Assembly: GCF_900186975.1 (NCBI RefSeq)
Contig: NZ_LT906441.1
Coordinates: 248,001 to 312,000, forward strand
DNA: 64,000 bases
From: Cutibacterium granulosum
GTDB lineage: Bacteria; Actinomycetota; Actinomycetes; Propionibacteriales; Propionibacteriaceae
Direction: 5' to 3'
Part shown: positions 36,577 to 59,006 of the stretch, piece by piece
Numbering within the stretch: position 1 is the stretch's first letter
Layout of the letters: each line of letters starts with the position of its first letter
The notes under the pieces: generated by a model
Seen by the model: the letters and a program-made list of their open reading frames with translations, nothing else
Told to the model about the DNA's origin: nothing
The model's database searches: none
Program-made: the position numbers and the translations under genes

Positions 36577-37230
36577 TCATCCATCCTCCGGTGTCGGTGC
36601 ATCCTCACCACGAAATGGCGTCGGGATCTCGACGATTCTCCGCGTGTCCCACGGGCGCTCCCATCCGCCCAGCGACAGGACGGCGTCGAGGATGTGCCCG
36701 GTGAATCCCCAGATGAACAGCTCCGGCAGGTCGAATGCTGCTCCTCGTCCTCCGTTGGGGTGATGTGCACTGACACGTGTCCGCGGATCGGCCAGGGTGC
36801 TCAGCGCAATGCGATGGACCTGGGACACCTCTGCTGGGTCGACGACCCGCAGTCCCCCACCGGACTTGGAGCCACCACCGTCCCACATTCCCACGACCGT
36901 CGTCACCGTCGAGCGGCTCACGGGGACCGTGACGCGTGCCGGTAGGGTTCCGAGCACCTTCACCTGCGAGGCAGCCACACCAACCTCCTCTTGGGTCTCT
37001 CGCAGCGCCGTGACGATGAGATCGGGGTCGCCAGGCTCGTAGTGCCCACCCGGCAGACAGACCTGCCCTCGATGCCGGTGCACCGTTGACGACCGTGTGG
37101 TGAGGACGACGTCGGGGTCGGCACAGTCGCTGAGCAACACCAGCACCGCCGAGGAGAAATTTCTGTCAGCTGGCGGCGGTACCGGGACCTCTGGTGACAG
37201 GACTGCGCGTAGCTTGTCAAAAATGTTCAT
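36577..37230 (-). CDS. Nudix hydrolase, CoA pyrophosphatase-like (NudL)
   Basis: 217 residues. Nudix box GGHYEPGDPDLIVTALRETQEEVGV (about residues 61-85) with RETQEEVG; the region HRGQVCLPGGHYE just before it matches the CoA pyrophosphatase subfamily. It hydrolyses CoA or related pyrophosphates. ATG 37230 lies 6 bp after the nth stop; GAGGTG is inside the nth end. M. tuberculosis has the same pair (Rv3672c-nth). Confidence 0.85.
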   Translation of the reverse strand: MNIFDKLRAVLSPEVPVPPPADRNFSSAVLVLLSDCADPDVVLTTRSSTVHRHRGQVCLPGGHYEPGDPDLIVTALRETQEEVGVAASQVKVLGTLPARVTVPVSRSTVTTVVGMWDGGGSKSGGGLRVVDPAEVSQVHRIALSTLADPRTRVSAHHPNGGRGAAFDLPELFIWGFTGHILDAVLSLGGWERPWDTRRIVEIPTPFRGEDAPTPEDG

Positions 37231-52317: not shown

Positions 52318-52885
52318 GCGATTCTTCCCTTCTGCGCTCCAACTCACTGCCTGCTCCACCTCTGCGTACCTGCTGCCGATGCTTCTCGTCCCGCTGCCGG
52401 GACGGGTGCCACGGATACCATCCGTCAGCCTCAACGATTCAGGCTCATCATCCGAGGGAACTCAGGCTCACCGCCCTGAGGATGGGGGCCAGAAGCCCTT
52501 CATGATGATGGCACCGATGTTTCTGCCGCACTGCCCCGAGGATGAAGACCAGCCCCTGCCCGACATCCCAGCACCCTGACCGGCAACTGAACGGTCCACT
52601 CCCCCCCCCATTGCCCCGGATGGATCCAAACGATCGGGTCCTAGACAGGCTCGACGCTGCACTCACCACTGCCCCACGGATGGATCCCCGGCGCGTGGGG
52701 AATCGTTGCAGTGCGTCAGGAATTGCTGGCATGACAAAAATTGTCACCTGCCCGAGGACATGATCACCAGAATGACTCACGTCACGTCTGCCAGCTGCAT
52801 TTGTTCACTGTCTCGCTGCAGTTGCCCGCTCAAGGGGCGGGACACGACTTCGCCTACTCGCTCGAAAATGATGCGTAGCCTCACC
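52318..52885. other. Non-coding stretch between bioF and bioW
   Basis: 568 bases. Contains a C9 run (52601-52609), a short repeat of GGATGGATCC-type sequence (about 52617 and 52678), and a TGAC palindrome at 52732-52746. No gene recognised; several open frames are not protein-like. Promoter of bioF expected here. Confidence 0.6.
52732..52746 (+). promoter_or_regulatory. TGAC palindrome copy 1
   Basis: TGACAAAAATTGTCA: perfect 6-bp inverted arms with a three-base centre. First member of the repeated 15-bp motif of this region; 415 bp upstream of bioF. Confidence 0.6.
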
Positions 52886-53614
52886 TCACGTTGTCGAAAC
52901 CCCACCATCAACTCCGTCACCCTCGACGACCACCGGGGTGTGTTCCAGGTACTCGATGAGTCCTGCCACGTCGTCTCCCCGGACGAGGAAGACGCGCCCG
53001 CCCCGGGCGGACCCGGGCTCCTTGATGTGGGGGATGCGCTGGTAACCGTGTTGTGCGGTGGCGAGGTAGCCCGTCGTGTAGTCCGGGTCGTCGGAGATGC
53101 AGATCTCGGCGAGCACGTCGGGGCGGTGGGCAACCTTCGCAGCAAGCACCTGCGCCTCGAGCACCCGGTGCTTTCCGCCGATCGGGTTGGACCTCGCCGC
53201 GTCCATGCTCGTCACCCGCACCCCGCGTTGCTGGTCAGGCTCCAGCCGCTGGCCGGTGGCGGCGTCCAGAAGTATTGCGCCACGCATGTCCCGGGCTTCG
53301 GTGAGCAGCATCCACGCCCGTTGCGCGTGCTCGGTCAGCGGAGCCAGAGCCGTCACGACGGTGTCCCTGGCATCCTGGGGTGAGGCGGTGGGCAGCACGG
53401 TCGTGGGCAGAAAAGGCACTCGCACGAGTTCACTCATGTCGATCCGTCTTACGGTGAGGTGGATCTCATCCGGGGTCGCCTTGGGGTGAGCGAGTGCCCG
53501 ATGCCCCATGTCGGCGCACAGCTGGGCCACCTCGTTCTCGTCCACGATCCGCTCGGCTCCAGAAACATGTCGGTCAGCCGCGCTGGCGCGCATTTTCACA
53601 CTGTAGAGAGGCAC
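52886..53614 (-). CDS. bioW: 6-carboxyhexanoate-CoA ligase (pimeloyl-CoA synthetase)
   Basis: 242 residues matching BioW along its length: YSVKMRAS near the start, HVSGAERIV, DMRGAILLDAATGQR, QRGVRVTSMD, AEICISDDPDYTTGYLA, and GYQRIPHIKEPG with GRVFLVRGDD. BioW activates pimelate with ATP and CoA, feeding bioF. GTG 53614 is the first in-frame start and gives the family N-terminus. Divergent from the IclR gene. It implies biotin synthesis from pimelate, not the BioC/BioH route. Confidence 0.9.
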   Translation of the reverse strand: MPLYSVKMRASAADRHVSGAERIVDENEVAQLCADMGHRALAHPKATPDEIHLTVRRIDMSELVRVPFLPTTVLPTASPQDARDTVVTALAPLTEHAQRAWMLLTEARDMRGAILLDAATGQRLEPDQQRGVRVTSMDAARSNPIGGKHRVLEAQVLAAKVAHRPDVLAEICISDDPDYTTGYLATAQHGYQRIPHIKEPGSARGGRVFLVRGDDVAGLIEYLEHTPVVVEGDGVDGGVSTT

Positions 53615-53796
53615 GGCGTCATGATACGAGAGGCAACTTAACAGCGTTCAGCTGGGGTGGTGCATGATCCGCCTGTGCTGCCCGTCCCATGGTGGACATG
53701 GTTGCCAGCCAGGCCGGGAGCCGCGGTTCTCACCTACCGCTTTACCCACCTGACACTCCCCACTCCCCCTCGGCTGCCCCCTTCACCTGACACACC

Positions 53797-53811
53797 TGAC
53801 AATTTTCATCA
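53797..53811 (+). promoter_or_regulatory. TGAC palindrome copy 2
   Basis: TGACAATTTTCATCA; first of three copies at exact 61-bp steps, 183 bp upstream of bioW. Confidence 0.55.
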
Positions 53812-53857
53812 GACCGACCGACCACACATCATGTGACTGCCTCCAGCACCCGGCAGG

Positions 53858-53872
53858 TGACGATTTTCGTCA
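53858..53872 (+). promoter_or_regulatory. TGAC palindrome copy 3
   Basis: TGACGATTTTCGTCA: perfect palindrome with TTT centre, 61 bp after copy 2. Confidence 0.6.
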
Positions 53873-53918
53873 GGTGGGTGAAGCCGCGCCGCTCCCCAGA
53901 CTCACAACGGGGATCAGC

Positions 53919-53933
53919 TGACAAAAATGTTCA
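53919..53933 (+). promoter_or_regulatory. TGAC palindrome copy 4
   Basis: TGACAAAAATGTTCA, 61 bp after copy 3. Confidence 0.55.
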
Positions 53934-54103
53934 CTCCCCATGACAGCATCACCGTGCCGCGCCCCACTCGCCGAAGCGGACCCCATCTCGCCGCAGTTTC
54001 CCGGACCGGTCTTCCCTGCCAGCAGCTTTGGCTCATGGCCCTCACGCTTCGTGACACTTTCGACCAGACAGAGCCCAGGACCGCATCGCCATGCCGGACA
54101 ATT

Positions 54104-54174
54104 CTTGCCACCAGAGCAATCTCGCCCCTCATGTCTTGCCACCAGACCGATCTCACACCATGCCTTGCCACCAG
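54104..54174 (+). repeat. Three imperfect repeats beginning CTTGCCACCAG
   Basis: Starts at 54104, 54135 and 54164 (steps 31 and 29). All begin CTTGCCACCAG and continue with related ATCTC...CATG sequence. Could be regulator sites or remnants of a small duplication. Confidence 0.6.
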
Positions 54175-54216
54175 GCCAGACTGATCTCCCCTCTCATGAT
54201 CGTTCTGCCTCGGGAG

Positions 54217-54231
54217 CGTCAATTTTTGTCA
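54217..54231 (+). promoter_or_regulatory. TGAC palindrome copy 5
   Basis: CGTCAATTTTTGTCA, 160 bp upstream of the IclR gene start. Confidence 0.5.
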
Positions 54232-54376
54232 GCTGCGACCCGCCTTCGTCACTGTGGTGACCGAACGGGGCCTGAAACGTCAGAAATGTGCATCACGGAC
54301 AGGAATCCGACACCTTTCCACACTGTGGGAGATAGATTCGGCATATTGGCAAAGTCGCCTCACAGTTGGAGTACCA

Positions 54377-55159
54377 GTGACCACCACATCAACCACGCCA
54401 ACCATTCGGTCGGTGGACCGTGCGCTCGACCTGCTCACCGCCGTATGTGATCATCCGGGTATCACACTCAGTGAAGCTGCCCGCTCTGCAGGACTGGCAC
54501 CGTCAAGCGCCCTGCGGCTGCTGCGCACACTCACGGAAAGTGGCTACCTCTCACGTACCCCCGACGGCTTGTACGACGTGGGCCCCGAGCTCATCCGCGT
54601 ATCCGGTCGGGTGCTTGCCGACAACTCGCTACGTCGCTTGTGCCGCCCAACGATGACCCAGCTGGCTGCCGAGACTGGCGAGTCGGTGTATCTCTCGGTG
54701 CGACATCATGACCGGGCCATCTATCTGGCCCTCGTACCGGGCATTCGCGCCATCCAGCATCGATCCTGGGAGGGCCAGTCCATCTCGTTGGAGACGAGCG
54801 CCGCCGGAGCTGTACTCACCGGACGCATCGGGCAGGCACGCTATGCCGTCATCACCTCAGGCGTGGAGAAGGACGTCGTCGGCATCGCAGCCCCCATCAC
54901 CTTGCACGATGAGGTCATCGCTGCACTGAGCATGGTCATCCCCTCCTGCCACCTCAACCACGAACTCACCACCCGATACGGCACGATGGTGGCATCCTGC
55001 GCAGCGTCTCTGTCCAAGCTCATTGGCGACAATCCACCCCACCGGCGCCGGCGACAGAGAACACACCGACCGTCCGCCCGGGCCGAGGCAGCTCAACCCA
55101 CCACTGACCATGCGTCCCCCACCAACAGCCATCCCAAGCCGTTGGCATCATCCCTGTGA
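54377..55159 (+). CDS. IclR family transcriptional regulator
   Basis: 260 residues. N-terminal winged HTH (LSEAARSAGLAPSSALRLLRTL, about 28-50), then the IclR effector-binding domain with GESVYLSVRHHDRAIYLALV and GIAAPITLHDEVIAALSM. A ~40-residue Arg/Pro-rich tail ends the protein. GTG 54377 has GGAG upstream. Divergent from bioW; the palindromes between them make autoregulation or bioW control possible, but the effector and targets are not known. Confidence 0.85.
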   Translation: MTTTSTTPTIRSVDRALDLLTAVCDHPGITLSEAARSAGLAPSSALRLLRTLTESGYLSRTPDGLYDVGPELIRVSGRVLADNSLRRLCRPTMTQLAAETGESVYLSVRHHDRAIYLALVPGIRAIQHRSWEGQSISLETSAAGAVLTGRIGQARYAVITSGVEKDVVGIAAPITLHDEVIAALSMVIPSCHLNHELTTRYGTMVASCAASLSKLIGDNPPHRRRRQRTHRPSARAEAAQPTTDHASPTNSHPKPLASSL

Positions 55160-55183
55160 AACCACACCACTGGACCAGGCCCA

Positions 55184-55948
55184 ATGCTCACCCTCATCTC
55201 TCCTGCCAAGTCACTGGACCTACGAAGCCCAACCCCTGGCCACCAGACGACTGAGCCCCGCATGCTCGACGACGCAACCAGTCTGGCCACGATCATGGCG
55301 GGGAAGACGTCCGCGGATCTGCGCATGCTCATGGGCGTCTCCGAGGAGATCGCCACCCTCAACGTGGAGCGCTACCGCAACTTCCAGCCCGGCACCCCCG
55401 ATGAAGCCCGGCCGGCCGCCACCACCTTCAACGGAGCCGTTTACCGCGGTATGGAGCCGCACCTCTTCACCACTCGGGACTGGACCGAGGCACAGAAGGT
55501 ACTGCGTATCCTCTCCGGTCTGTACGGCGTGCTTCGCCCGCTCGACCGCATCCAGCCATATCGTCTGGAGATGGGAACTGCTCTGCACACCGATCGCGGG
55601 TCGACCTTGGTGGACTGGTGGGGCGAACGCATTCGCATGTTGCTCGAAGCCGACCTTGCCGAGTCACCTGGCGCAAAGGTCATCGTCAATCTGGCCTCCG
55701 CTGAGTACTTCCGTCCGGTCAGGGGCATCGACGCCACCGTCATCTCGCCGCGTTTTGAGTCCCGGGATCGGCAGGGCCGTTGGAAGGTCATCTCCTTCAC
55801 CGCCAAGACGGCTCGAGGACTCATGGCCGGATGGTTGGTACGCAACCGGGTACGCACCCCCGGCGCCCTCAAGAACTTCGACGTCGGCTGGCGATACCAC
55901 GTGGAAGGCTCCACACCAGAAGTTCCAGTGTTCCGCAAGGGGGAATGA
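55184..55948 (+). CDS. yaaA: YaaA family protein (peroxide stress, DUF328)
   Basis: 254 residues. MLTLISPAKSLDL at the start, YRGMEPHLFTTRDW, LRILSGLYGVLRPLDRIQPYRLEMGT and VINLASAEYF are family marks. In E. coli YaaA limits intracellular Fe and protects DNA from peroxide. Lies 24 bp after the IclR gene, so the two are probably one transcript. Confidence 0.92.
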   Translation: MLTLISPAKSLDLRSPTPGHQTTEPRMLDDATSLATIMAGKTSADLRMLMGVSEEIATLNVERYRNFQPGTPDEARPAATTFNGAVYRGMEPHLFTTRDWTEAQKVLRILSGLYGVLRPLDRIQPYRLEMGTALHTDRGSTLVDWWGERIRMLLEADLAESPGAKVIVNLASAEYFRPVRGIDATVISPRFESRDRQGRWKVISFTAKTARGLMAGWLVRNRVRTPGALKNFDVGWRYHVEGSTPEVPVFRKGE

Positions 55949-56496
55949 CTCCCGGAATGCAAGGTCGACCTCACCAGCTGAGGTACATGACATGGCCCTC
56001 ACGGGGACCCGATCCCCAAATTGAGCGCATGCCGAGGTGGGGCCCAGCCTTTCTGACCCTATTGCACAACTGAGCGAGCTCCCCCACTGGACGAGGCTCA
56101 TGTGCTCGCTGGCAGATCCATCCATGATTTCGCCAGTGGCACGGCCTGTGAATGCTGCGAGTGTTCACACCTCGGCAGAGTGCCCCTGAGCGCCGGTGAA
56201 CAAAAATGTCAGCCCGGCACTCCTCACCGCACAATACTGACGCACTGTCCGGGAGCGAGGGGATTCTGACGGATCATTCGAGCTGGTGGGTCCTGCCGCT
56301 CTGCGAATCCAACGTCAGTGGCGACCCCCAGCTCACGAAGACCCGTCCAGGTCAAGCGCCCGGGACAGCATTCGGCGGAATTCCCGGCCCAGCACATTGC
56401 TGTGAGGCACCCCTGGAGGAACAGGTTGACGGATCCTCCTCGTCTTGGAGAGCCAGATCCTTCTCCCATGCCTCAGGAGAACAGGTCCAACCTCGC
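55949..56496. other. Non-coding stretch between yaaA and rpmE2 (convergent)
   Basis: 548 bases with no gene recognised. Only the TGAC motif copy at 56197 stands out; it cannot be a promoter operator for either convergent neighbour. Confidence 0.55.
56197..56211 (+). repeat. TGAC motif copy 6
   Basis: TGAACAAAAATGTCA, inside GGTGAACAAAAATGTCAGC, a 19-base string repeated exactly at 57807-57825. Confidence 0.6.
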
Positions 56497-56742
56497 TCAT
56501 GTGTTCCTGCCGTAGCGTCGGTTGAATCTCTCCACCTGACCAGAGGTGTCGATGATCTTGGCTCGCCCGGTGTAGAAGGGGTGGCTGGCTGAGGTGATGT
56601 CGACATCGATGAGGGGGTAGGTGTTGCCGTCCTCCCCGATGTGTTTGGAACTGGTGGCAGTCGATCTCGTGAGAAAGGTCATGCCCGCTGAGATGTCTCG
56701 AAAGACCACCGAGTGGTAGCCGGGATGGATGCCCTGTTTCAT
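56497..56742 (-). CDS. rpmE2: 50S ribosomal protein L31 type B (zinc-independent)
   Basis: 81 residues: [53 protein letters not shown]. Type B L31 has no cysteines, unlike the zinc form. In many bacteria it is made under zinc limitation through loss of Zur repression. A Zur-like box lies 42 bp upstream. It may also help keep L31 function while the zinc form is degraded. Confidence 0.94.
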
Positions 56743-56783
56743 CGTCGTCCTTCCAGCATGAGTTGTGTCTCGCCACCAGTACT

Positions 56784-56804
56784 ATATGATAATGATTCTC
56801 ATAT
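56784..56804 (+). promoter_or_regulatory. Zur-type operator between L31 and L28
   Basis: A near palindrome ATATGATAATGATTCTCATA centred on AATGATT; close to the actinobacterial Zur consensus TGAAAATGATTTTCA. Lies between divergent starts of L31 and L28, so one box could control both directions. Confidence 0.85.
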
Positions 56805-56814
56805 GTAAGATACT

Positions 56815-57065
56815 GTGACAGGAGCTCCCCTGTCCCGACGCTGTCAGGTCCGCGGCACCAGACCTGGATTCGGCAACAACGTCTCACATTCCCAACGCCG
56901 CACCAGACGCCGTTGGAACCCCAACATCCAGCGGAAGTGCTACTGGGTTCCGTCGCTGGGTAGGCGAATCACCCTCACCCTGACCCCAAGGCGATGAAGG
57001 AAATCGATCGGCGCGGCATCGACGTCGTCGTTGCCGAAATGCTCACTCGAGGAGAGAGGATCTGA
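56815..57065 (+). pseudogene. rpmB: 50S ribosomal protein L28, cysteine-poor paralogue, with a frameshift
   Basis: Residues [51 protein letters not shown] match L28. The frame then hits TGA at 56995. One base earlier the C-terminal part continues intact: [23 protein letters not shown] to a TGA at 57063-57065 that overlaps rpmG's ATG. One C missing in the run at ctgaccccaagg explains the break. Start: GTG 56815, or a CTG at 56830 that follows AGGAG at a five-base gap and gives the usual SRRCQV beginning. Either a real mutation, a sequencing slip in the C run, or weak -1 frameshifting. Confidence 0.85.
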
Positions 57066-57235
57066 TGGCCAAGAAATCCACACAGCTGCGATCCATCATC
57101 AAGCTGCGCTCGGCTGCCGGAACTGGCTACACCTACGTCACCCGCAAGAATCGTCGCAACACACCAAATCGCCTCGTCCTGCGAAAATTCGACCCCATCG
57201 CGCGCCGCCACGTCGAGTTCAAGGAGACCCGCTGA
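57065..57235 (+). CDS. rpmG: 50S ribosomal protein L33 (zinc-independent form)
   Basis: 56 residues: [56 protein letters not shown]. The CxxC pairs of the zinc form are absent. Start overlaps the rpmB stop (TGATG) and its stop overlaps rpsN (TGATG), a tightly coupled Zur operon. Confidence 0.94.
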
Positions 57236-57540
57236 TGGCCAAGAAGTCCAAGATCGCCGCACAGGCAAGACGCAAGAAGATGGTGGCCAAGTATGCCGAC
57301 CGGCGTGCCGAGCTCAAGGCCATCATCAAATCGTCAACAGCCACACTGGACGAGCGGATGGAGGCGTCCCGCGCATTGTCCGCCCTGCCGCGAGACTCGT
57401 CACCGGTGCGGCTGCGCAACCGCGACCAGATCGACGGACGCCCCCGTGGCTACGTCGGTAAGGCAGGAGTGTCTCGTATCCGGTTCCGCGAGATGGCACA
57501 CCGCGGCGAACTTCCCGGAATCACGAAGTCAAGTTGGTGA
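57235..57540 (+). CDS. rpsN: 30S ribosomal protein S14 (zinc-independent, long form)
   Basis: 101 residues, the long S14 form lacking the CxxC...CxxC zinc motif of the short form. [55 protein letters not shown]. Long S14 is used under zinc shortage. Confidence 0.95.
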
Positions 57541-57544
57541 GAAC

Positions 57545-57715
57545 ATGGCAGTACCCAAGCGCAAGAAATCCCGTTCAACCACCCGCCACCGGCGGGCACA
57601 GTGGAAGGCCTCAGCCCCCAGACTGGTGGAGATTCACATCGGCGGCAGAAGCATGCGGGTGCCACAACACTTGGCCAAGGCCTACCGCTGCGGACTGATC
57701 TCTCCCGACGACTGA
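57545..57715 (+). CDS. rpmF: 50S ribosomal protein L32 (zinc-independent form)
   Basis: 56 residues: MAVPKRKKSRSTTRHRRAQW, KASAPRLVEIHIGGRSMR, VPQHLAKAYRCGLI. The MAVPKRK start is L32; the CxxC of zinc L32 is missing (a single Cys is left). Actinobacterial Zur loci usually carry S18 here; L32 is the occupant in this genome. Last gene of the Zur operon. Confidence 0.93.
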   Translation: MAVPKRKKSRSTTRHRRAQWKASAPRLVEIHIGGRSMRVPQHLAKAYRCGLISPDD

Positions 57716-57808
57716 TCGGATCGGTTGGTTCAGCACCGATCCTGCAGTTCCTCATGGCAGGCCTCCAGGTGGCGAGACCTCGCTGCGGGGCCGTGCTCTG
57801 AGGGTTGG

Positions 57809-57823
57809 TGAACAAAAATGTCA
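57809..57823 (+). repeat. TGAC motif copy 7
   Basis: TGAACAAAAATGTCA, same 19-base context as copy 6, 85 bp upstream of the FKBP gene. Confidence 0.6.
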
Positions 57824-57893
57824 GCACCAGCCCGGTCGCGACAGAATTGTTGATTAACCGGCGTGTGACCGGGAATCCTCTAGGGTTGTCGTC

Positions 57894-58259
57894 ATGAGCA
57901 AGCCTGAAGTCACCCTGCCCGATTCCGCCCCCGACGAGCTCGTCCTCGACGACATCACTGTCGGTGACGGCCCCGAGGCCTCTGCCGGCAACCTCGTTGA
58001 GGTGCACTACGTCGGAGTGGCCCTGAGTACCGGTCGCGAATTCGATTCGTCGTGGGACCGCGGAGAGCCGTTGACCTTCCAACTGGGAGCCGGTCAGGTG
58101 ATTCCCGGGTGGGATGACGGTGTGCAGGGCATGAAGGTGGGCGGACGACGCCGACTCGTCATCCCCCAAGATCTGGCATACGGCCCGCAGGGCATTCCCG
58201 GTGTCATCGCCGGCGGTGAGACGCTGATTTTCGTCTGCGACCTCGTCAACGTCATCTGA
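57894..58259 (+). CDS. FKBP-type peptidyl-prolyl isomerase
   Basis: 121 residues. FKBP marks: VEVHYVGVALSTGREFDSSW, LGAGQVIPGWDDGVQGMKVG, GRRRLVIPQDLAYG, LIFVCDLVNV. Cytoplasmic cis-trans proline isomerase/chaperone. The start at 57894 has no obvious ribosome site. A 20-bp hairpin follows. Confidence 0.94.
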   Translation: MSKPEVTLPDSAPDELVLDDITVGDGPEASAGNLVEVHYVGVALSTGREFDSSWDRGEPLTFQLGAGQVIPGWDDGVQGMKVGGRRRLVIPQDLAYGPQGIPGVIAGGETLIFVCDLVNVI

Positions 58260-58296
58260 GTCCAGAACACTGAATCTGCGGCCTCACGTCGCGAAC

Positions 58297-58339
58297 CACG
58301 GCAGCGTCCGTACCCATCGTGGGTACGGACGCTGCCGTG
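58297..58339 (+). terminator. Strong hairpin terminator after FKBP
   Basis: CACGGCAGCGTCCGTACCCA pairs perfectly (20 bp) with its complement across a three-base loop, 38 bases after the stop. Confidence 0.85.
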
Positions 58340-58465
58340 TAAGGCGTTGTCACCAGTCACCGTGTTGGCCCCGCCATCCTCGACATGGTCGTCCGAAAAA
58401 CACCGAAACCTGCAGAGCCGCCCGCTACCGTGCCCAGGACGCCCACCATCGAGCTCAGAAGTTCG

Positions 58466-58480
58466 TGTTCAAAAATGTCA
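58466..58480 (+). repeat. TGAC motif copy 8
   Basis: TGTTCAAAAATGTCA, followed by GCACG as in copy 7's GCACC. 640 bp upstream of hutU. Confidence 0.5.
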
Positions 58481-58991
58481 GCACGCCGATCGACCCGGCA
58501 CACAAGAGACCTCACCACCCCCGAGGTATCAAAAATCGCCCACTCGACACCACCCCACCCGCCTCACCACAGGCTCTTGGTGGGAAACCCCAGCGGACAA
58601 GGCCCTCCACTGGTCGATTGGTCGACCTGCTCATTCCGCGTGGTGGCAGGGGAAACCCCAACGAGCAAGCTCCCCAGCGCCCCGGAGCCGGGCTTCCCGA
58701 TCCCGACAGGGCCTCGGCGATGAACGCCGCCAAGCGTCCAGCCCAGCACATCGCCTGGCACCGTGACCTCTGCCTGCAGGGGTCCACGCCAACAAGAACA
58801 CCCGGCATCGGTTGACCGTCGGGCCCCGTGGCCCCGCAGGGACCCACGAGCATCCGAGACTCTCTCCTGCTCCAGGATCTGCTGCCCCGAGGTCTGCAGG
58901 AACAGCACGCACCGCCACATCCGGTCACCAGCGTCAAAAAGCATCGGGTCACATCGTCGCCATGCACAACAGTGACGCCATCCCGGTGGTA

Positions 58992-59006
58992 CCGTCAAAA
59001 ATGTCT
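58992..59006 (+). repeat. TGAC motif copy 9 (weak)
   Basis: CCGTCAAAAATGTCT, sharing GTCAAAAATGTC with the family; 114 bp upstream of hutU. Confidence 0.4.

Follow-up and report, generated by a model that had tools for sequence, protein, structure and literature searches.

The closest described parallels to the sites reported here come from systems that organize bacterial chromosomes and from a family of DNA-wrapping proteins. In the terminus region of E. coli, the 13-bp matS motif is present in 23 copies, and the passages cited report that no effect on expression of the domain's genes was found (PMC3116907). Compaction or anchoring is described, in the passages compared, for MatP, which acts at the terminus (PMC3116907), and for RacA, which acts near the origin (PMC6593407). 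For Lrp/AsnC proteins such as Ss-LrpB, the passages cited describe sites spaced two or three helical turns centre to centre with wrapping of the DNA (PMC2995911), and a 15-bp AT-centred palindrome (PMC4046817). Here we describe a family of 15-bp near-palindromic sites in Cutibacterium granulosum, first noticed in a stretch of 64,000 nucleotides (the window, C1:248001-312000) of the source genome (G000), a single contig of 2,175,244 bases (NZ_LT906441.1, hereafter C1). With about even confidence, we read these sites as the strong nodes of a lattice to which a protein binds, marking an arm of ~200 kb on one side of parS/oriC.

As in the MatP/matS system, a short dyad whose arms read TGAC/GTCA occurs in many copies restricted to one chromosome domain. 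The sites differ from matS in being 15 bp long with an AT core, in numbering 67 strong copies, in lying next to the origin on one side of it, and in forming a 30.5/61-bp lattice. The consensus does not follow the 13-bp matS motif GTGAC(A/G)N(T/C)GTCAC, and there is no confinement to the terminus, the last strong site lying ~12 kb left of dnaA. With ParB/parS, of which two parS copies mark the edge of the domain, the family shares origin-proximal dyads, but its sites are unlike TGTTTCACGTGAAACA (the parS consensus), far more numerous and found on one side only. The ram sites bound by RacA in Bacillus subtilis are also dense near the origin, which here holds for one side only; ram sites occur across the remaining chromosome as well, and the passages compared mention neither a one-sided domain nor a lattice. 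In the source genome, 4 of the 39 exact sites lie beyond the domain. Two features of Lrp/AsnC sites recur here, the 15-bp AT-centred dyad and spacing on one helix face (30.5 bp A–B and 61 bp A–A, as defined below). The half-site, however, is TGWCA instead of TTGCA, and the sites fill an origin-proximal arm. SlmA sites are not described, in the passages compared (PMC3116907), as limited to a single origin flank or as forming a phased lattice. Noc sites are not known to have either feature. Our best reading is that the lattice is akin to matS or ram sites but belongs to neither system.

Sites were scored with a position-weight matrix (PWM), in a later version symmetrised. The exact pattern YGWCRAAAAWYGWCR matches the source genome 39 times and its reversed control not once, and 35 of the 39 matches fall within C1:285-485 kb. 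With up to three mismatches to TGACAAAAATTGTCA, 88 matches were found (some sites on both strands) versus 6 for the reversed pattern. That the sites are a genuine family is, in our judgement, practically certain. The origin-proximal landmarks are dnaA at C1:496053, the ParB gene (C1:485168-486121) at the domain edge, two exact copies, at C1:487092 and 488585 on the same edge, of the parS consensus TGTTTCACGTGAAACA, and the minimum of the cumulative GC skew (10-kb bin at 498 kb; 228-732 kb fetched). These landmarks therefore identify the domain as the ~200 kb immediately left of the centromere and origin, and the window as its left edge.

Gene calls were home-made, and the coding and gap figures depend on them. 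On these calls, the coding share is 0.70 at 285-485 kb, compared with 0.83 right of the origin and 0.80 at 40-220 kb. Of 67 strong sites in the left domain (285-485 kb), 62 lie in its 57.2 kb of gap (1.08 per kb), whereas of 4 in the right flank (497-732 kb), 2 lie in its 38.8 kb of gap (0.05 per kb); the gaps have a G+C of 0.61 on the left and 0.63 on the right. Other regions gave 0.17 strong sites per kb of gap far to the left (40-220 kb), none at 228-285 kb, and a single one in 14.5 kb of gap pooled from four 20-kb stretches elsewhere. The left domain is richer in long gaps, with 42 that measure at least 500 bp. Within gaps of this length, strong sites number 1.36 per kb on the left versus 0.09 per kb on the right (2 sites in 21.2 kb), a control which rules out that the motif merely tracks long gaps. 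We are very confident that the domain is one-sided.

The same distribution recurs in the genus, of which nine members were compared, namely the source genome and eight relatives (G001-G008). A search of 117 genomes of the family for the exact pattern gave 5-12 matches in each of seven genus relatives (none with the reversed control, apart from 1 in G006) and 0 in the eighth, G008, while 108 genomes of other genera gave 0-2 each, the same range as their reversed controls. A composite 77-bp model of core and flanks was built from an alignment of 48 sequences, from which C1:352144 (within a called gene) and the sites of four locally duplicated stretches had been excluded. Scanned at E up to 0.1 over 57 genomes, whose only genus members were G000, G003, G004 and G008, it gave 72, 15, 16 and 0 matches in these four, respectively, and 0-2 in each of the 53 others. 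In six relatives, 36 of 51 exact matches share a contig with dnaA and lie to its left at a distance of no more than 225 kb (G001 6/9, G002 10/12, G004 6/8, G005 4/5, G006 4/7, G007 6/10); none lies within 225 kb to the right on the dnaA contig, and the remaining 15 are farther away or on other contigs. These counts were made by hand, with the single contigs of G002 and G004 treated as circular. G003 was omitted because its contigs are broken and its origin segment is reversed relative to the left-arm genes. At C9:41-80 kb of that genome, dnaA and its flanking genes are opposite in orientation to left-arm genes of the same contig, either through an inversion around the origin or as an effect of assembly. 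By these computations, the domain is origin-adjacent, one-sided and genus-specific.

Each strong site, or A node, is the 15-bp dyad TGWCRAAAAWYGWCA (TGWCR-AAAAW-YGWCA), in which two TGWCA half-sites, set one helical turn from each other, enclose an A-tract. In the surroundings of the strong sites of the source genome, the core score has secondary peaks at +61 bp (z 15.9) and -61 bp (z 11.8). Outside six locally duplicated blocks, 12 A–A pairs are spaced by exactly 61 bp, compared with 0.11 per other distance. Midway in this interval, 30.5 bp from the A core, lies a weaker palindrome, GNCAN6TGNC (G.CA......TG.C), which we term the B node. It occurs 35 times at exactly 30.5 bp in the source genome, compared with 1.41 (sd 1.43) at distant offsets. 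In stretches from six relatives not used in its discovery, it occurs 29 times at 30.5 bp and 17 times at 31.5 bp versus 3.4 (sd 2.5), the count at 10.5, which overlaps the core, being set aside. A B node accompanies 33 of the 67 strong sites on at least one side, where chance would give ~1 (frequency 0.0094 per position). The A–B distance corresponds to about three turns and the A–A distance to about six, with half-sites on one helix face at ~0, 1, 3, 4, 6 and 7 turns. Such spacing probably reflects a cooperative lattice.

Within the window, TGACAAAAATTGTCA with up to three mismatches gave 10 matches (52732 being counted on both strands, and 54096 being weak) versus 0.36 expected from shuffles, the largest shuffle giving 2. 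The preliminary description had listed nine sites, eight of which belong to the family (52732, 53797, 53858, 53919, 54217, 56197, 57809 and 58466; PWM 16.5-26.2); 58992 does not (PWM -4.2), and a member at 37215 (score 19.0) had been overlooked. The form under which the sites had been grouped, TGAC-N7-GTCA, is not enriched: with up to one mismatch it occurs 49 times versus 41.6 expected, and 16 of 100 shuffles reach 49. The arms alone are at chance level, and the AT core within the dyad is therefore the distinctive part. The reported 19-base identity of 56195-56213 with 57807-57825 is exact, and the 61 + 61 bp spacing of 53797, 53858 and 53919 had gone unremarked. Confinement of the sites to 52.7-59 kb is true within the window except for 37215, but the domain continues ~175 kb past the window; the sites appeared confined because the window cuts the domain's left edge. 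B nodes lie beside 52732, 54217 (matching 6/6 letters), 56197 and 58466, and between 53797 and 53858. The features of the window are as follows.

37215..37229, + strand: A node, the domain's left outlier (C1:285215), score 19.0
52732..52746, + strand: A node, exact consensus TGACAAAAATTGTCA (C1:300732), by pattern search and PWM
52763..52776, no strand: B node, GNCAN6TGNC with 5/6 letters, 30.5 bp from the 52732 site, by pattern match
53797..53811, - strand: A node, score 21.4
53828..53841, no strand: B node (5/6), halfway between 53797 and 53858, by pattern match
53858..53872, - strand: A node TGACGATTTTCGTCA, 61 bp past the 53797 site, score 22.8
53919..53933, + strand: A node, 61 bp past the 53858 site, score 20.5
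54104..54178, no strand: 31-bp tandem unit, x2.5, with TTGCCACCAG, of lattice-like spacing, in the gap before iclR
54217..54231, - strand: A node, score 21.1
54248..54261, no strand: B node GTCACTGTGGTGAC (6/6), 30.5 bp from the 54217 site, by pattern match
54377..55159, + strand: gene of an IclR-family regulator (Pfam IclR_C, HTH_IclR)
56197..56211, + strand: A node TGAACAAAAATGTCA, score 18.5
56228..56241, no strand: B node (5/6), 30.5 bp from the 56197 site, by pattern match
57809..57823, + strand: A node TGAACAAAAATGTCA, score 18.5
58466..58480, + strand: A node TGTTCAAAAATGTCA, score 16.5
58497..58510, no strand: B node (5/6), 30.5 bp from the 58466 site, by pattern match
58527..58541, + strand: weak A-like node TATCAAAAATCGCCC, exactly 61 bp from 58466 (first PWM 10.4; symmetrised PWM <8)

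To assess conservation, 31 strong sites were selected from G2 alone, of which 21, 27 and 25 could be aligned in G4, G6 and G7, respectively. A self-trained gene model was used for G2 in this test because the model trained on the source genome seemed to under-call it (coding 0.61). Core identity was 0.87, 0.93 and 0.94 in the three genomes and flank identity 0.77, 0.82 and 0.86. The excess of core over flank was significant in each (P 5e-5, 5e-5 and 1e-4), and AT-matched windows showed no such difference. Restricting the test to the 15 non-coding G2 sites, of which 6, 12 and 10 aligned, gave P values of 0.015, 5e-5 and 0.0055. The sites are very probably protein-binding sites under selection. 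Neither the even distribution nor the lack of conservation that the preliminary description had named as counter-evidence was seen among near relatives, where the distribution is uneven and the cores are conserved. Between the source genome and G2 or G4, however, few sites can be aligned and conservation is not in excess.

Several observations weigh against reading the sites as nodes of a selected lattice confined to one origin flank. The four exact YGWCRAAAAWYGWCR sites outside the domain (of 39) lie at 150 kb (three) and 796 kb (one), and the 796-kb site, ~300 kb right of dnaA, is also the single best match of the composite model (C1:796239-796307). In the relatives the 61-bp A–A spacing is weaker, with only 2 counts at exactly 61; the peaks of their autocorrelation at 60, 63 and 61 are joined by others at 126 and 168, which codon periodicity may explain, and in the stretches of G003 and G001 a distance of 61 does not rank in the top six. 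Called genes overlap 16 of the 31 G2 sites. When G2 or G4 is compared with the source genome, the core is no better conserved than the flank (0.74 vs 0.75 and 0.72 vs 0.73) among the alignable sites (14/72 and 11/52), and only 7/36 and 3/31 orthologous gaps, respectively, have sites in both species. Site-by-site turnover at this distance is considerable. On the same side of the balance stand the local duplications and the state of an AsnC/Lrp gene, both described below.

Part of the arrays in the source genome did arise by local duplication, with tandem or segmental duplications at C1:329.2/329.4, 331.9/332.1, 409.0/411.6 and 411.5/411.9 kb; the 61-bp tandem at C1:332 kb is an array that grew in this way. 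Such duplications, together with the lower coding share of the domain (0.70 vs 0.83 right of the origin), would fit intergenic repeats of old or selfish origin, either REP/MITE-like or in the form of a 61-bp satellite, that piled up in the long gaps of the arm. However, when the cores were masked and gaps compared with gaps, only local duplications and hairpins emerged and distant sites had no flanks in common. The mobile-like repeat offered in the preliminary description is thus not borne out, and a dispersed REP/MITE repeat is disfavoured, since distant copies lack similarity beyond the core. Inside the 61-bp units little stands out besides the lattice positions. Moreover, conservation of the cores between near relatives exceeds that of AT-matched controls, and long gaps right of the origin are nearly empty (2 sites in 21.2 kb). 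We consider an origin as repeats improbable.

The sites occur in every class of gap and in either orientation, without strand preference (-5 of 67), and the median length of their gaps is 840 bp. Of the 45 genes flanking 26 chosen gaps, 40 were scanned with Pfam, as were 10 other genes of the arm. Among the neighbours identified in this way are enzymes of histidine degradation, biotin enzymes, citrate synthase, phosphofructokinase, permeases and tRNA nucleotidyltransferase. No common theme was found among the genes scanned, and a regulon of related genes was rejected. The sites could instead serve a global transcription regulator as operators, its targets lying by chance mostly left of the origin and the lattice providing cooperative repression or activation. 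Their 15-bp dyads with half-sites one turn apart do resemble operators of dimers, and density is highest in divergent gaps (1.52/kb, vs 1.13 in tandem and 0.79 in convergent gaps). Yet sites are depleted close to gene starts, 8 of 53 lying within the 150 bp before them versus 12.7 expected, so that promoter-proximal operators are disfavoured. Nine sites lie in convergent gaps, density drops ~20-fold across the origin, and the scanned neighbours lack a shared theme. A global regulator is therefore an unlikely, though not negligible, explanation. As for an RNA element, Rfam at the gathering threshold returned five matches in the window and three 20-kb stretches (L037, L040 and L041), all of them tRNA, and this candidate was rejected, the sites having no strand preference.

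The small ribosomal-protein genes and the FKBP-like gene of the window were named by eye from their translations. Directly after the FKBP-like gene, a strong inverted repeat at 58297-58339 is terminator-like. At 56787-56801, upstream of an L31-like gene and the small ribosomal protein gene cluster (likewise named by eye), lies the dyad TGATAATGATTCTCA, a putative Zur-like box. A CAMP factor gene (PF07373; C1:481150-481971, - strand) is found near the right edge of the domain.

The preliminary description had pointed to the IclR protein as the nearest candidate binder, and its gene adjoins a gap with four strong sites. This proposal is refuted by distribution. Besides the source genome, a close orthologue is present only in G008 (72% identity), where, alone in the genus, exact sites are lacking; among the seven relatives that do carry sites, IclR matches are weak and distant in five (24-31% identity class) and absent in two. 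Because the close orthologue is missing from the site-bearing relatives, IclR is not the binder, and the sites extend ~180 kb past iclR, beside unrelated genes. Operators of this local protein are hardly conceivable.

A second local candidate is encoded inside the domain, an AsnC/Lrp protein with a double helix-turn-helix (HTH) (C1:434587-435600), for which the sites would be the binding array. Its gene lies left of dnaA in the source genome and in 7/8 relatives (its absence in G003 is uninformative because a contig break falls where the gene would be). Its family is known, in the passages cited, for such phased sites (PMC2995911), and a weak node (435612, score 11.4 with the first PWM) stands right before the gene start. 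The frame was checked in four relatives. The gene is intact in G008, where exact sites are lacking, and full length in G004 as well, whereas the frame is disrupted in the site-bearing G002 (L117) and G005 (L111), leaving open reading frames of 208 and 277 aa that depart after roughly the first HTH and ligand domain. For these reasons, we rate this protein as a quite improbable binder.

From the arrangement of the nodes, we infer a binder and a function. Dimers of one cooperative DNA-binding protein would sit at consecutive nodes along a single helix face, and the bound dimers may bend or wrap the DNA, by analogy with Lrp/AsnC proteins on sites two or three turns apart. An Lrp/AsnC-type binder is possible but doubtful. 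Complexes of this kind, set along the flank left of the origin, would serve to compact, anchor or insulate the arm for segregation and would not switch single genes. Since they would be spread over one origin flank in non-promoter DNA, compaction or anchoring of the arm is the most plausible outcome, and a chromosome-level role seems somewhat likelier than one at promoters. Among the options offered in the preliminary description, it is thus the chromosome-organising one that survives, on the strength of a domain-limited, origin-adjacent distribution that recurs in relatives, while the IclR operator and the mobile-like element have fallen away.

A literature search, with most subscription papers and all preprints outside its scope, found no paper for six letter forms of the core and no such sites among the listed Cutibacterium titles and abstract openings. 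The sites may belong to an undescribed Cutibacterium chromosome-organising system, in which a DNA-wrapping protein on the 30.5/61-bp A/B lattice of a one-armed domain beside parS/oriC would let the two origin flanks be packed or positioned differently; we hold this tentatively, at somewhat less than even confidence. Few sequence-defined bacterial chromosome domains are known, and in the passages compared none of matS, SlmA sites, ram and parS is described as limited to one side of the origin. The motif is a direct bait for finding its protein. If true, a conserved single-flank domain would mean that the two chromosome arms are treated differently from the centromere outward in Cutibacterium, which are abundant human skin bacteria.

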